Positions 53,019 through 57,291 of a DNA stretch of 64,000 nucleotides are shown here, piece after piece. The notes under the pieces are model-generated. The model saw only the letters and a program-made list of their open reading frames with translations, was not told the DNA's origin and ran no database searches. Within the stretch, counting starts at the first letter, position 1, and each line of letters begins with the position of its first letter. The DNA comes from an uncultured Clostridia bacterium (GTDB lineage: Bacteria; Bacillota; Clostridia; Christensenellales; Borkfalkiaceae): NCBI GenBank assembly GCA_947631005.1, contig CANRJR010000008.1, forward strand, positions 1 to 64,000, written 5' to 3'. A program made the translations under genes and the position numbers.

Positions 53019-54107
53019 TTATTCCTCCGCGGGCGGATCTTCGCTCTCCAAATTCATCTTCGCCGCCGCCGATTCGCTCTTTACGTCGATCTTCCAACCC
53101 GTGAGACGGGCGGCGAGGCGGGCGTTCTGCCCCTCCCTGCCGATGGCGAGCGAGAGCTTGTCGTCGGCGACCACCGCGACTGCGGACTTCTCGGAAAGCT
53201 GCGTCACCGAGATGACCGTTGCGGGCGAGAGTGCCTTGGCGATAAATTCGAGCGGGTTTTCGCTCCACAGCACGATGTCGATCTTCTCCCCGCCGAGTTC
53301 GGCGACGACGGCGTTCACGCGCGCGCCCTTGTTCCCGACGCATGCGCCCACGGCGTCGACGCGGGAATCCATCGAGGCGATCGCGATCTTCGTGCGATGC
53401 CCCGCCTCGCGTGAGATCGCCTTTACGACGATCGTCCCCGACTTCATCTCGGGAACTTCCTCCTCGAAGAGACGCTTCACAAGCCCGGGCGCGGAACGGG
53501 AAACGAGCACCTGCGCGTTCCTGCCGCCGTTCCTCACCCGCTTGACGTACACTTTAATGCGGTTGCCCGCCTCGTATTTTTCGCCGGGGGTTTGGTCTTG
53601 CGGAAGCATGACGCCCTCAATCTGACCCTTGCCGAGTTCGATGTACACGTTGCGCATATCCACTTTGCGGATGAGCCCGCTCATGAGCTCGCCCTCCTTA
53701 TCGGAGAACTCCGAGAGGGTGTTGTCGCGCTCGGTTTCGTGGATCTTTTGCAGAATGACCTGTTTTGCGGTCTGCGCGGCGATGCGCGAGAAGTCTTTCG
53801 GAACGAACTCTTCGGTGAGCACGTCGCCCACTTTCGCGCTCTTTTTGATCTCCTGCGCCTCGTCGAGATAGATCTCGCCGTCGCCGAGCTCCTCCTTGTC
53901 GTCCTCCACGACCGTCCGCAACAAAAAGAAGCGGATGGTGTTCTTCTCGGGATTGAGACGGACTTCCACGTTCCCCGTTTCCCCGAATACCTGCTTCTTG
54001 TAGGCGGAAGCGAGCGCATTGGAGAGTGCCTCGATGAACACTTCCTCCCCGATCCCGCGTTCGCGCTCCAAATCGGCGAGCGCGGCAAAGAAATCTTTGT
54101 TGACCAT
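53019..54107 (-). CDS. nusA: Transcription termination/antitermination protein NusA
   Basis: A 362-residue factor that binds RNA polymerase and nascent RNA. N-terminal domain (about 1-125), S1 (about 130-200), KH1 and KH2 (about 200-345), with GKGQIEGVMLPQDQ and GNKGARVNAVVAELGGEKIDIV motifs. No C-terminal acidic repeats, as usual in Bacillota. Confidence 0.96.
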   Translation of the reverse strand: MVNKDFFAALADLERERGIGEEVFIEALSNALASAYKKQVFGETGNVEVRLNPEKNTIRFFLLRTVVEDDKEELGDGEIYLDEAQEIKKSAKVGDVLTEEFVPKDFSRIAAQTAKQVILQKIHETERDNTLSEFSDKEGELMSGLIRKVDMRNVYIELGKGQIEGVMLPQDQTPGEKYEAGNRIKVYVKRVRNGGRNAQVLVSRSAPGLVKRLFEEEVPEMKSGTIVVKAISREAGHRTKIAIASMDSRVDAVGACVGNKGARVNAVVAELGGEKIDIVLWSENPLEFIAKALSPATVISVTQLSEKSAVAVVADDKLSLAIGREGQNARLAARLTGWKIDVKSESAAAKMNLESEDPPAEE

Positions 54108-54165: not shown

Positions 54166-54621
54166 TTACACTTCGATGCAAAGACAGACTTTCGACGTCT
54201 TGTCGAAAGGAAATTCCCTCTCCCCCGCCGCCGTTGCGACCCGCACGGTTTTGCCGTCGAATGCGAGAAGTTCGCCCTCCCATTCTTTTTTTTCCTCGTA
54301 CGGCGCGTAGAAGTGCAGTTCGATCTTCTCCCCCGTATGGCGGTCGAAATCCGCTTGCGTCTTAAAAGGACGGTCGAGCCCCGGGGACGAGCAGTTGAGC
54401 GTGTACGGCGCGCCGAACGTGGGGTCGAGCTCGTCGAGCGGATCGTCGATCGCGCGGTGGAACCGCTCGCATGCGTCGATGTCGATCCCCCCCTCGCAGT
54501 CGATGAACACGGTGAGCGAGCGCGTCCGCATGTCCCACGCGGCGTCTACGATCTCCACGCCCGTCGCCTCCGCGTACGGCTGCAAAAAAGCGACGACCTC
54601 CGCGATCGGTTTGACTTTCAT
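54166..54621 (-). CDS. rimP: Ribosome maturation factor RimP
   Basis: A 151-residue factor for 30S assembly. VEIVDAAWD, LTVFIDCEGGIDIDACERFHRAID and NCSSPGLDRPF match. First gene after a promoter and a hairpin leader; it precedes nusA by 58 bases. Confidence 0.94.
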   Translation of the reverse strand: MKVKPIAEVVAFLQPYAEATGVEIVDAAWDMRTRSLTVFIDCEGGIDIDACERFHRAIDDPLDELDPTFGAPYTLNCSSPGLDRPFKTQADFDRHTGEKIELHFYAPYEEKKEWEGELLAFDGKTVRVATAAGEREFPFDKTSKVCLCIEV

Positions 54622-54639
54622 ACTTCCTCCATAAAGAGA

Positions 54640-54663
54640 TTGAGAGCGGCGACCCGCTCTCAA
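54640..54663. repeat. 10-bp perfect hairpin in the rimP leader
   Basis: TTGAGAGCGG and CCGCTCTCAA flank a 4-base loop. On the rimP transcript it lies between the promoter and the ribosome site. There is no T tract, so it is not a plain terminator. Confidence 0.8.
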
Positions 54664-54690
54664 CCAAACTCTCATGATTTCAGCATCACG

Positions 54691-54719
54691 ATTGTAACAC
54701 ATCGCGAAAGAAAAAGCAA
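54691..54719 (-). promoter_or_regulatory. Promoter of the rimP-nusA operon
   Basis: Minus strand TTGCTT (54719-54714), 17 bp, TACAAT (54696-54691), about 70 bases before rimP. Confidence 0.65.
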
Positions 54720-54746: not shown

Positions 54747-56249
54747 TTACCGCGGAAGTCCGCCCGCCTGTCGCACGAGCTCGATAAAGATCTTCGCGGT
54801 GACGAACGCGTCGTCGTAGGCGCGGTGATGACGGAACGTAAACCCGAAGTGATCGGCGATCGTGTTGAGCTTATGATTGGGAAGCCGCAACATCGACTGC
54901 GCCATGAGCAGAGTATCGTACACCTTTTGCTCGAAGAGATATCCCTCCTTTTCCCCGTAGTGACGGATGAATTTGATATCGAACCCCTGCGCGTTGTGTC
55001 CGACGAGCGAACAGCCCGCCGTAAACTTATAAAAATCGGCGATGACCGCGGACACGGGCGGCGCGCCGACCAACATTTCGTCGGTGATCCCCGTGAGCGC
55101 GACGATCTCTTCGGAGAGGCGCACGGGCGACGCCACGAACGTGGAAAACTTCTCGCAGATCTTTCCGCCGCGGATCTTCACCGCCCCGATTTCGATGATG
55201 TGATCCATGCCCGCCGCTGTCGTGCCGAGCCCCGTCGTTTCGAGGTCGAATACCACGAAGTCCTCCCTCAAAAGCGCGTCGGGAAGAGAGCTCTCCCCAA
55301 AGAGATCTCCCTGAATAAGGTCGCTCTCGGGCGTGGGGAATACGGCGGTGTAATGCGCGGGGACGGGGCGGGACGGACGCGCTTCGGGGACGAAATCCGC
55401 GGGAAGCGCGCCCAAATTGAAGGCGCGGACGCGGAATGTGAGCGCGCCGTTGTAAAATTCGCTGTCCCCCGTGAGGCAGACCCCCGCGCCCGCCGAGAGC
55501 GAGCGCACCTTTTCCACCGTCGCCTTTTTCGAAAAATAGGAGGCGCGGATCGAACCCGTTCCGTCCGATACGGTCAGCGTGAAATAGGGCTTGCCGTTCT
55601 TCGTCACCCGCTCCTCGATGTGCGAGAGCGTCCCGCAGACCGTCACGCCCTGCGCCTCTTTATCGAGGTCGGCAAGGTACACGGCGCGCGTTTGCCCGTT
55701 GCCGTCGATCGCGGAAAAGTCGGCGACGGGAAAGGTGCGGGGCGCGCGGACGGGCTCGGCGGGCTCGGCTTCCTGCCGCTCGATCTCCCGCGGCTGCGCC
55801 TGTTCCCGCACGCGAAGTTCGCCCAGCCACCGTCCGCAAAAGCTGCGCGCGAGCTCTTCGCTCACGGCGTCGATCGCCTCGTCCGCACCCTCCGCGTTGT
55901 CGGCGACGAGGACGAACCGCCCGCCCCCCTCGTTGAGGGACACGCCGATCTCTTCGGGCGCAATAAAGGCGGAAAAGGCGGGAAACCGCCGCTTCAAGAT
56001 CTCCGCGACGGCGCGGCGGACGCCCTCTTCGCTCGGGGCGGATTTTACGACCTTTGCCGCCCCTTTCATGCCCGCGGGGGCATACCGCGCCGAGACCTCG
56101 TTCGCATAGGAAACGTCCTCCTGCGAATAGTTGACGTCGGTCGCGAGGTGAAAGACCGCCGTATCTCCCTCGACGACGATTTTTTTGAGGACGGCGCGCA
56201 CGAGCCCGTGCGAACGCCTGATCTCTTCCAAATACTGACGGCTCTTCAT
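54747..56249 (-). CDS. PolC-derived exonuclease protein lacking PHP and polymerase domains
   Basis: A 500-residue protein. Residues 1-150 match the PolC N-terminal domain in layout, 195-285 form an OB fold (GVTVCGTLSH, YFTLTVSDGTGSI), and 330-495 are a complete DEDDh proofreading exonuclease: Asp335 and Glu337 (DLETTG), Asp424 (HNAQGFD), His475 and Asp480 (HRAYDD). The PHP halves, palm, fingers and thumb are missing; rimP follows after 125 bases. The gene occupies the polC slot between ispG and rimP. It may proofread or process DNA in trans. Confidence 0.85.
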   Translation of the reverse strand: MKSRQYLEEIRRSHGLVRAVLKKIVVEGDTAVFHLATDVNYSQEDVSYANEVSARYAPAGMKGAAKVVKSAPSEEGVRRAVAEILKRRFPAFSAFIAPEEIGVSLNEGGGRFVLVADNAEGADEAIDAVSEELARSFCGRWLGELRVREQAQPREIERQEAEPAEPVRAPRTFPVADFSAIDGNGQTRAVYLADLDKEAQGVTVCGTLSHIEERVTKNGKPYFTLTVSDGTGSIRASYFSKKATVEKVRSLSAGAGVCLTGDSEFYNGALTFRVRAFNLGALPADFVPEARPSRPVPAHYTAVFPTPESDLIQGDLFGESSLPDALLREDFVVFDLETTGLGTTAAGMDHIIEIGAVKIRGGKICEKFSTFVASPVRLSEEIVALTGITDEMLVGAPPVSAVIADFYKFTAGCSLVGHNAQGFDIKFIRHYGEKEGYLFEQKVYDTLLMAQSMLRLPNHKLNTIADHFGFTFRHHRAYDDAFVTAKIFIELVRQAGGLPR

Positions 56250-56250
56250 G

Positions 56251-57291
56251 TCACTTCACCAATGCGTCGAGCCGCGAGAAAAACACTTCCTCGGCGCGCT
56301 CGGTTTCCACTTTTACGTTTTCCTTGCCGCGTTCCATGATGATGCAGGCGTGCTTGCCGCCCGCGATGCCGAGGTCGCAATCCCCCGCTTCGCCCGGCCC
56401 GTTCACAACGCACCCCATGACCGCGATTTTCAGTTTTTTCGCCACCCGCCCCACGCGTTCGTTGACGCGCTCCGCGAGCCCCATGCAGTCGTATTCGCAA
56501 CGTCCGCAGGTCGGGCAGGAGACCACTTCGACGTAATCTGTCTCCAATCCCACGGCGCGCAAGATCTCGTGTCCCGCCACAACTTCCTTTACGGGGTCGG
56601 CGGTGAGCGAGACGCGGATGGTGTCGCCGATCCCGTCGAGAAGAAGCGTTCCGATCCCGATGCTGCTCTTCACCGTACCGCTCCGCTCCGTCCCCGCCTC
56701 GGTGACGCCGAGGTGCAGGGGATAGCCCGTCTTACGGGCGAGCATGCGGTACGCCTCCACCGTGAGCGGCACGCTTGACGCCTTGACCGAGATCACGATG
56801 TCGCTCACGCCGTGCTTTTCCAACAGCCGCACGTTTGCAAGCGCGCTCTCGACGAGAGCCTCCGCGCTCCTGCCGTAGCGGGACAGGAAATGCGGCTCGA
56901 TGCTCCCCGTGTTCGACCCGACCCGAACGGGCACGCGGTGCGCGCGGACGCAATCCGCGACCCGCGCGATCTCGGCTTCCCCGCCGATGTTCCCGGGGTT
57001 GATGCGCAGTTTGTCCGCACCGTTTTCCACGGCGAGAACGGCGAGCCGCGCCGAGAAATGCACGTCGGCGACGACGGGGATATGCACCCGTTCCCGAATG
57101 TTCCCCACGGCGCGCGCGTCCGCTTCGTCGAGAATGGCGACGCGGGCGATGTCGCACCCCGCGGCTTCGAGACGCAGAATTTGAGCGACGCTCTTTTCGA
57201 CGTCGCTCGTTCGTTCGGTGGTCATGCTCTGCACGGCGATCTTTCCCCCGCCGAGGAGAACGCCGCCTACGTTGACTTTCTTTTCAGACAT
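56251..57291 (-). CDS. ispG: (E)-4-hydroxy-3-methylbut-2-enyl-diphosphate synthase
   Basis: A 346-residue 4Fe-4S enzyme of the MEP isoprenoid pathway. VGGVLLGGGKIAVQSMTTERT starts the TIM barrel; the cluster ligands lie in SCPTCGRCEYD with a later Glu in VVNGPGEAG. Overlaps nrdR by one base. Confidence 0.96.
   Translation of the reverse strand: MSEKKVNVGGVLLGGGKIAVQSMTTERTSDVEKSVAQILRLEAAGCDIARVAILDEADARAVGNIRERVHIPVVADVHFSARLAVLAVENGADKLRINPGNIGGEAEIARVADCVRAHRVPVRVGSNTGSIEPHFLSRYGRSAEALVESALANVRLLEKHGVSDIVISVKASSVPLTVEAYRMLARKTGYPLHLGVTEAGTERSGTVKSSIGIGTLLLDGIGDTIRVSLTADPVKEVVAGHEILRAVGLETDYVEVVSCPTCGRCEYDCMGLAERVNERVGRVAKKLKIAVMGCVVNGPGEAGDCDLGIAGGKHACIIMERGKENVKVETERAEEVFFSRLDALVK

Follow-up and report, generated by a model that had tools for sequence, protein, structure and literature searches.

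Genomic context of the short polC gene

The window, i.e. the whole stretch of 64,000 nucleotides that was analysed, carries the gene order nrdR-ispG-[ORF]-rimP-nusA-ylxR-ylxQ-infB-rbfA, in which the ORF encodes a 500-residue protein composed of PolC modules (Table 1). The gene without an NCBIfam match is taken here to be ylxQ because of its position. Between the stop codon of the ORF and the rimP ORF lie 44 bp, or 125 bp if an inner ATG is used as rimP start, which leaves no room for a polymerase remnant. An earlier note on this DNA, made from the sequence alone, had placed the protein between ispG and rimP-nusA, and this slot was recovered in the loci of related genomes as well: all of the 40 loci of the short gene (L112-L151) contain at least one of ispG, rimP and nusA, 29 of them both ispG and rimP, and the seven loci collected earlier (L074-L079, L089) likewise contain ispG, rimP or nusA (both ispG and rimP in six, ispG only in one). 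Full-length PolC is encoded between ispG and rimP in four of eight loci and beside ispG only in two, with neither neighbour found in the other two. Nothing found here supports the sporulation exonuclease offered as one option in the earlier note, and among neighbours that serve translation and transcription a sporulation-specific role is very improbable.

Table 1 Features of the short polC locus in the window
Feature	Position	Strand	Basis or remark
Polymerase-less PolC, 500 aa	54747..56249	-	Whole gene; ATG start; stop at 54747-54749
PolC N-terminal domains NI+NII, residues 1-150	55800..56249	-	hhalign and AlphaFold2
OB fold, residues 186-285	55395..55694	-	PF01336; hhalign to PolC OB
Linker, residues 286-325	55275..55394	-	Site of the lost N-terminal PHP half
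Clamp-binding-like motif QGDLF, residues 313-317	55299..55313	-	Pattern conserved among orthologues
DEDDh exonuclease, residues 326-498	54756..55274	-	D335, E337, D424, H475, D480
ispG, upstream neighbour	56251..57291	-	NF001540, above cut-off
rimP, downstream neighbour	54166..54702	-	NF000928, 4e-27, below cut-off
nusA, downstream, same gene run	53019..54107	-	TIGR01953, above cut-off

Domain composition

Searches against Pfam recognized the exonuclease (PF00929, residues 332-488, 5.9e-32) and the OB fold (PF01336, residues 202-275, 1e-7) of the 500-residue protein, and the N-terminal domain went undetected by Pfam alone. In profile-profile comparisons using hhalign, each module separately matched PolC, as the earlier note had read them: residues 1-185 matched the PolC N-terminal domain (NTD) over 133 columns with P 97.0 and E 8.2e-11, the OB region matched the PolC OB fold with P 99.3 and E 5.2e-20, and the exonuclease matched that of PolC with P 100. 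Eight column-shuffled controls for the NTD match all stayed at P ≤ 0.1. An AlphaFold2 model of the NTD by itself reached a pLDDT of 95.3, with NI and NII as two alpha-beta-beta-alpha-beta, KH-II-like units. The five DEDDh residues were found where the earlier note had located them and are invariant in a nine-sequence alignment (A1).

No match to PF02811, PF07733, PF17657 or PF14579, all four of which are matched by the control PolC L081, was obtained with Pfam for the 500-residue protein. In the colinear hhalign alignment to full PolC, the OB part extends up to residue 284 and the exonuclease resumes at approximately residue 330. Hence, the earlier statement that both PHP halves and the polymerase are gone stands, whereas the exonuclease does not directly follow the OB fold, as about 40 residues lie between them. 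We read the ORF as a PolC orthologue minus both PHP halves and the entire polymerase.

Among NCBIfam models, that of PolC (NF001688, 2.4e-46) fits the exonuclease best. Regarding family cut-offs, the protein misses that of the PolC equivalog (157.9 bits vs 873) and that of the Pol III epsilon equivalog NF004316 (77.2 bits vs 196), and passes that of TIGR00573 (97.2 bits vs 71.5). Its final helix comprises residues 477-495, leaving no epsilon-like PHP-binding tail before the C-terminus at residue 500. In an exonuclease tree, the slot exonucleases cluster together (SH-aLRT 99) with one other exonuclease (G026) inside, and they sit within a 55-row cluster (SH-aLRT 98) to which all 26 PolC rows also belong, along with six small exonucleases.

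A clamp-binding-like motif in the linker

Orthologues were compared in a 66-row alignment, from which the cut-off L040 was excluded; 54 of the 66 have an intact exonuclease active site. The pattern Q..[LMIF][FL] occurs in the linker of 50 of these 54 proteins (mean 2.2 and maximum 8 in 1000 rounds of linker shuffling), and 46 of the 54 fit the strict form Q..[LMIF]F (mean 1.2, maximum 6). In terms of conservation among the 54, Q313 and F317 rank 29th and 32nd of 488 columns, respectively. Exonuclease-intact members without the motif are the f6 members G029 and G130, and three more (f6_G118, f1_G061, L043) fail the strict pattern. Full-length PolCs carry the strict clamp motif within their last 16 residues in 25 of 28 cases, a place where the short form has none. 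Upstream of the PolC exonuclease, Q..[LMIF]F was found in only four of 27 PolCs scanned (at approximately residues 10, 53, 65 and 285), and within the 100 residues preceding the exonuclease in none of the 27. Because the PolC motif is C-terminal and none occurs near the exonuclease, the linker motif looks newly placed at the site of the removed PHP half. Judged by its sequence and by comparison with the published clamp-motif consensus QL[S/D]LF (given in passages of PMC3919608), QGDLF presumably binds the sliding clamp.

Replicative polymerases and distribution of the short form

As C-family polymerase of the genome of the window, a PF07733 profile search retrieved a single 1202-residue DnaE, a DnaE1 exceeding the NF005298 cut-off (1390 vs 1260 bits); the same search gave a match in 10 of 14 control genomes, including Bacillus subtilis. 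A PolC polymerase signal elsewhere in this 75-contig draft was not found with PF07733, so that the whole-genome search for polC and dnaE suggested in the earlier note ended with no full-length PolC and one DnaE1. The DnaE-encoding stretch also carries whiA (assigned by NCBIfam), murB and pfkA (both by eye), and whiA or pfkA accompanies dnaE in 18 of 20 loci from PolC-bearing and PolC-less genomes, the other two being short contigs. The only other PF00929 protein found in this genome, a DEDDh-type protein of 325 residues (L004:1471-2448), scores 46 bits compared to 115 bits for the slot protein; it is encoded downstream of a gene that, by eye, resembles serine-tRNA ligase.

The distribution was surveyed in 151 genomes of the order, which we take to be GTDB Christensenellales, nearly all of them at least 90% complete, with the same set used for exonuclease-profile and PF07733 searches and all order-wide counts tallied by reading tables. 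Comparing the slot in related genomes in this way, the short form was found in 93 of the 151 genomes, representing 15 families, with a profile match spanning the NTD and a frame of 489-714 residues; 89 of these were among the matches listed and the remaining four, all from family f16, came from a further search. For the remaining 58 genomes, from 12 families, the matches listed include no short form, although a very weak one could escape. A PolC-type exonuclease within a frame of 1239-1650 residues was among the matches listed for 44 of the 58, and the rest had weaker matches than those listed, shorter frames or, in five genomes (G067, G111, G119, G131, G155), no match at 1e-12. Three of the latter, G119, G131 and G155 of family f11, have two to three PF07733 matches and are candidates for PolC without exonuclease.

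Among the 93 short-form genomes, 88 have one PF07733 match, G060 and G130 none, and G080, G094 and G095 two. At least two matches occur in 57 of the 58 genomes without the short form and one in G058, where it should be considered that one PolC often yields two PF07733 pieces, so that two matches do not always represent two polymerases. In agreement, the genome of the window and 40 relatives mostly show one polymerase where the short form is present and two where PolC is full-length. Exceptions are G007, G013 and G022 (75-83% complete), which have no PF07733 match, G006 and G024 with an extra weak match, G035 with PolC but no DnaE, and G030 (51% complete) with many matches. The weak extra matches of G024 (G024:C13:34181-34945) and of several G030 contigs lie in frames of roughly 390-1100 residues and are perhaps DnaE2-like polymerases.

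A wider search at 1e-66, a threshold under which diverged copies like the f16 ones go unseen, covered 196 class and 199 phylum genomes: all NTD-spanning matches listed belong to the order, and the non-NTD matches listed are exonucleases within frames of 1350-1477 residues. Within the class outside the order, at least two PF07733 matches were obtained for 180 of 186 genomes, a single one for five and none for the last. Two genomes of this group with one PF07733 match, G208 and G277, gave no match to the short-PolC profile at 1e-5, and a complete, independent loss of PolC is possible there. G255, which likewise gave one PF07733 match, contains a PolC-like exonuclease match interrupted by three stop codons (L248, G255:C1:45561-46094), either a broken polC or a case of frame trouble. 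The protein retrieved 20 named loci, of which one, at 62% identity, is from Candidatus Gallimonas merdigallinarum; the others are from Clostridia or Clostridiales metagenome bins.

An assembly error, a frameshift or a decaying pseudogene of a normal polC could be considered given the draft state of the genome in 75 contigs. The short, NTD-spanning frame is, however, common to all 93 genomes from 15 families, rimP follows within 125 bp, dN/dS is well below 1 (see below) and there is no second PolC polymerase signal, which together make this explanation practically negligible; sequence error, named in the earlier note as what might undo its reading, is ruled out by the orthologues.

One branch (SH-aLRT 100) of a tree of 55 DnaE proteins divides 37 PolC-less from 18 PolC-bearing rows. 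Four of 59 rows, all shorter than 1050 residues (f4_G027, f16_G145, f16_G109, f22_G123), were left out, and the root position of this order-only tree is assumed, PolC being the rule outside the order. Such a single separating branch indicates one loss and not repeated decay: the short form goes back to one ancient truncation, inherited from a common ancestor by a large clostridial clade with DnaE1 as its only replicase. DnaE1 of the PolC-less clade also has an insertion after the palm, often of at least eight residues (residues ~477-500 of L002:3597-7205), in a region which is presumably the thumb, as well as three near-diagnostic substitutions; PolC-bearing relatives are without the insertion.

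Of 59 DnaE rows, two are cut off in the PHP region; the other 57, in which this region is complete, all keep the HHDHEHCDH site of the PHP domain, whether PolC is present or absent, so DnaE1 may proofread alone or share proofreading. Based on these intact PHP ligands, the slot protein could instead be an exonuclease for repair or 3'-end trimming, with the PHP site of DnaE1 doing the proofreading. DinG and other DEDDh nucleases do share the exonuclease fold of the 500-residue protein, and, according to passages of PMC12926913, just one candidate proofreader, either PHP or DnaQ, is present in most bacteria that rely on DnaE1 alone. The clamp-like motif, the retained PolC NTD and OB fold and the replacement of PolC family by family within the order, however, point to the replication fork, and we regard a repair or trimming enzyme as unlikely.

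Loss of the active site and selection

The active site has been lost in 12 of the 66 aligned orthologues, belonging to three lineages: all four members of f16, six of seven in f19 (all but G167), and genus g68, i.e. two of nine members of f28. These proteins lack all five catalytic residues, apart from f19_G134, which retains D335. Members added later and lying outside these counts are G039, G109, G133 and G095 of f16 (dead) as well as G060 and G130 (intact). On the DnaE tree, where five of the 37 PolC-less rows are unlabelled, exonuclease loss corresponds to three changes and the linker motif to five, the motif being lost twice with the exonuclease intact. The strict motif pattern failed in all 12 dead proteins, several of which keep the Q and part of the pattern. 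In the three independent pairs that 32 rows provided, too few for significance, motif and exonuclease changed together in an average of 2.7 pairs and in opposite directions in none (sign test, median p 0.25). Clamp tag and nuclease thus tend to be lost together, and NTD and OB fold are kept for a reason of their own.

The dead genes are still located in the slot. For close orthologues of the gene in the window, dN/dS was 0.096, 0.139 and 0.262 in three pairs, and for whole dead genes it was 0.106 (G157/G043), 0.328 (G139/G127) and 0.098 (G081/G145), the latter being rough ratios at a dS of 1.4-3.0, near saturation; two further dead-gene pairs were saturated. Of the 60 most conserved columns among the 54 intact orthologues, 45 belong to the exonuclease. 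The earlier argument that intact catalytic residues speak for selection consequently holds for the protein in the window and fails as a family-wide rule, since the 12 dead members are constrained as well. Dead and yet conserved, these proteins indicate a role beyond DNA cleavage, and the loss of exonuclease and motif in three lineages shows that this activity is dispensable there.

Four genomes whose slot exonuclease is dead, three of f16 and one of f19 (G081, G122, G145, G039), contain stand-alone exonucleases of about 190-200 residues (L227, L228, L230, L243), all with a stretch resembling (K/R)G(Q/R)xLxxFPxD(Y/F)TV immediately ahead of motif I.

The protein might also be mainly a replisome adaptor, whose NTD and OB fold hold DnaE1, the clamp loader or single-stranded DNA, with the nuclease being secondary. 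This is suggested by the exonuclease-dead forms that stay in the slot in three lineages under constraint (three pairs with finite dS) and by the relationship of the PolC N-terminal domains to domain V of tau, for which passages of PMC3919608 and PMC12926913 give a proposed clamp-loader role. A pure adaptor would, however, have no need for the active site retained in most orthologues, nor for an exonuclease that dominates the conserved columns, and the ratios of the dead lineages are rough, so that we consider an adaptor a minor contender, if a somewhat stronger one than a repair enzyme.

Comparison with known systems

Compared to full PolC of the B. subtilis kind, NTD, OB fold, DEDDh exonuclease and genomic slot are orthologous, whereas PHP, palm, fingers, thumb and HhH are absent from the short form and the clamp-like motif, C-terminal in PolC, is located in the linker between OB fold and exonuclease. 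At the sequence level, the short form resembles Escherichia coli DnaQ, the Pol III epsilon subunit, in being a stand-alone DEDDh exonuclease beside a sole DnaE1 and in having a clamp-binding-like motif. In epsilon, the clamp-binding motif follows the exonuclease, whereas it precedes it here; moreover, the short form has the PolC-derived NTD and OB fold and lacks the PHP-binding C-terminal tail of epsilon. The noncanonical mycobacterial DnaQ, which works beside an active DnaE1 PHP proofreader without stable DnaE1 binding (passages of PMC12926913), is similar by description only and is not described as PolC-derived. Some Clostridia and Negativicutes are reported to have a PolC that lacks an integral exonuclease (passages of PMC3919608); this is the mirror image, with the polymerase kept and the exonuclease lost, and shares with the short form the loss of PolC domains in Clostridia. 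Noncanonical PolX proteins are polymerase-family members without polymerase activity that keep an exonuclease (passages of PMC12926913), yet they belong to family X, use a PHP exonuclease and are non-replicative, whereas the short form derives from PolC. That some Clostridia have lost PolC is already known: a single DnaE1 is noted for some of them in passages of PMC3919608, which also call the joint working of PolC and DnaE1 unknown. A retained polymerase-less PolC was not described in the titles, abstracts and passages searched, a body of text that holds no supplements and few of the subscription papers.

Proposed function and implications

PolC descent, the slot, the sole DnaE1 found, a single change on the tree, the clamp-like motif and selection are all computed support for our preferred reading: the protein is probably a PolC-derived, clamp-tethered trans-proofreader of DnaE1 which has a second, non-catalytic role. 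Against this weigh the intact PHP site of DnaE1, the loss of exonuclease and motif in three lineages, the exonuclease-intact members without the motif, and G208 and G277, where one PF07733 match goes with no such protein. The stand-alone proofreading factor for a DnaE-type polymerase suggested in the earlier note finds support here as a selected, PolC-derived exonuclease (slot, sole DnaE1, motif, dN/dS), and it is proofreading in trans that we infer. In such a mechanism, NTD and OB fold would anchor the protein to the replisome, with DnaE1 or the clamp loader as partner. The sliding clamp would be held by the linker motif, and the DEDDh domain would clear mismatched 3' ends left by DnaE1, so that this stand-alone protein would do the proofreading work of epsilon. 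The PolC of B. subtilis joins DnaE at the primer end and proofreads it in trans within a template-DnaE-PolC complex (passages of PMC5627055), and this task of PolC may have been retained. If the ancestral PolC proofread in trans, DnaE1 could have taken over all synthesis and PolC could have shrunk to its docking and editing parts. Editing is possibly shared with the PHP domain of DnaE1, as reported for mycobacterial DnaQ (passages of PMC12926913), and could be forgone in some lineages; the three dead lineages would have abandoned proofreading and retained the docking part.

With about an even chance, this arrangement amounts to a fourth bacterial replicase layout, in which DnaE1 synthesizes alone and a fork-bound, clamp-tethered, polymerase-less PolC with its own docking domains proofreads in trans. 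Three lineages would have gone further and turned it into a replisome part without catalysis, which would give the N-terminal domains of PolC a function separable from both polymerase and exonuclease. The passages of the 2026 survey that list three polymerase combinations (PMC12926913) do not include a polymerase-less PolC among them. These gut bacteria would offer no target for PolC-directed inhibitors. More generally, the clade shows which PolC parts outlast the polymerase, namely NTD, OB fold, exonuclease and a clamp-like tag, so that small proteins suffice to test directly both trans-proofreading and what the N-terminal domains of PolC do.
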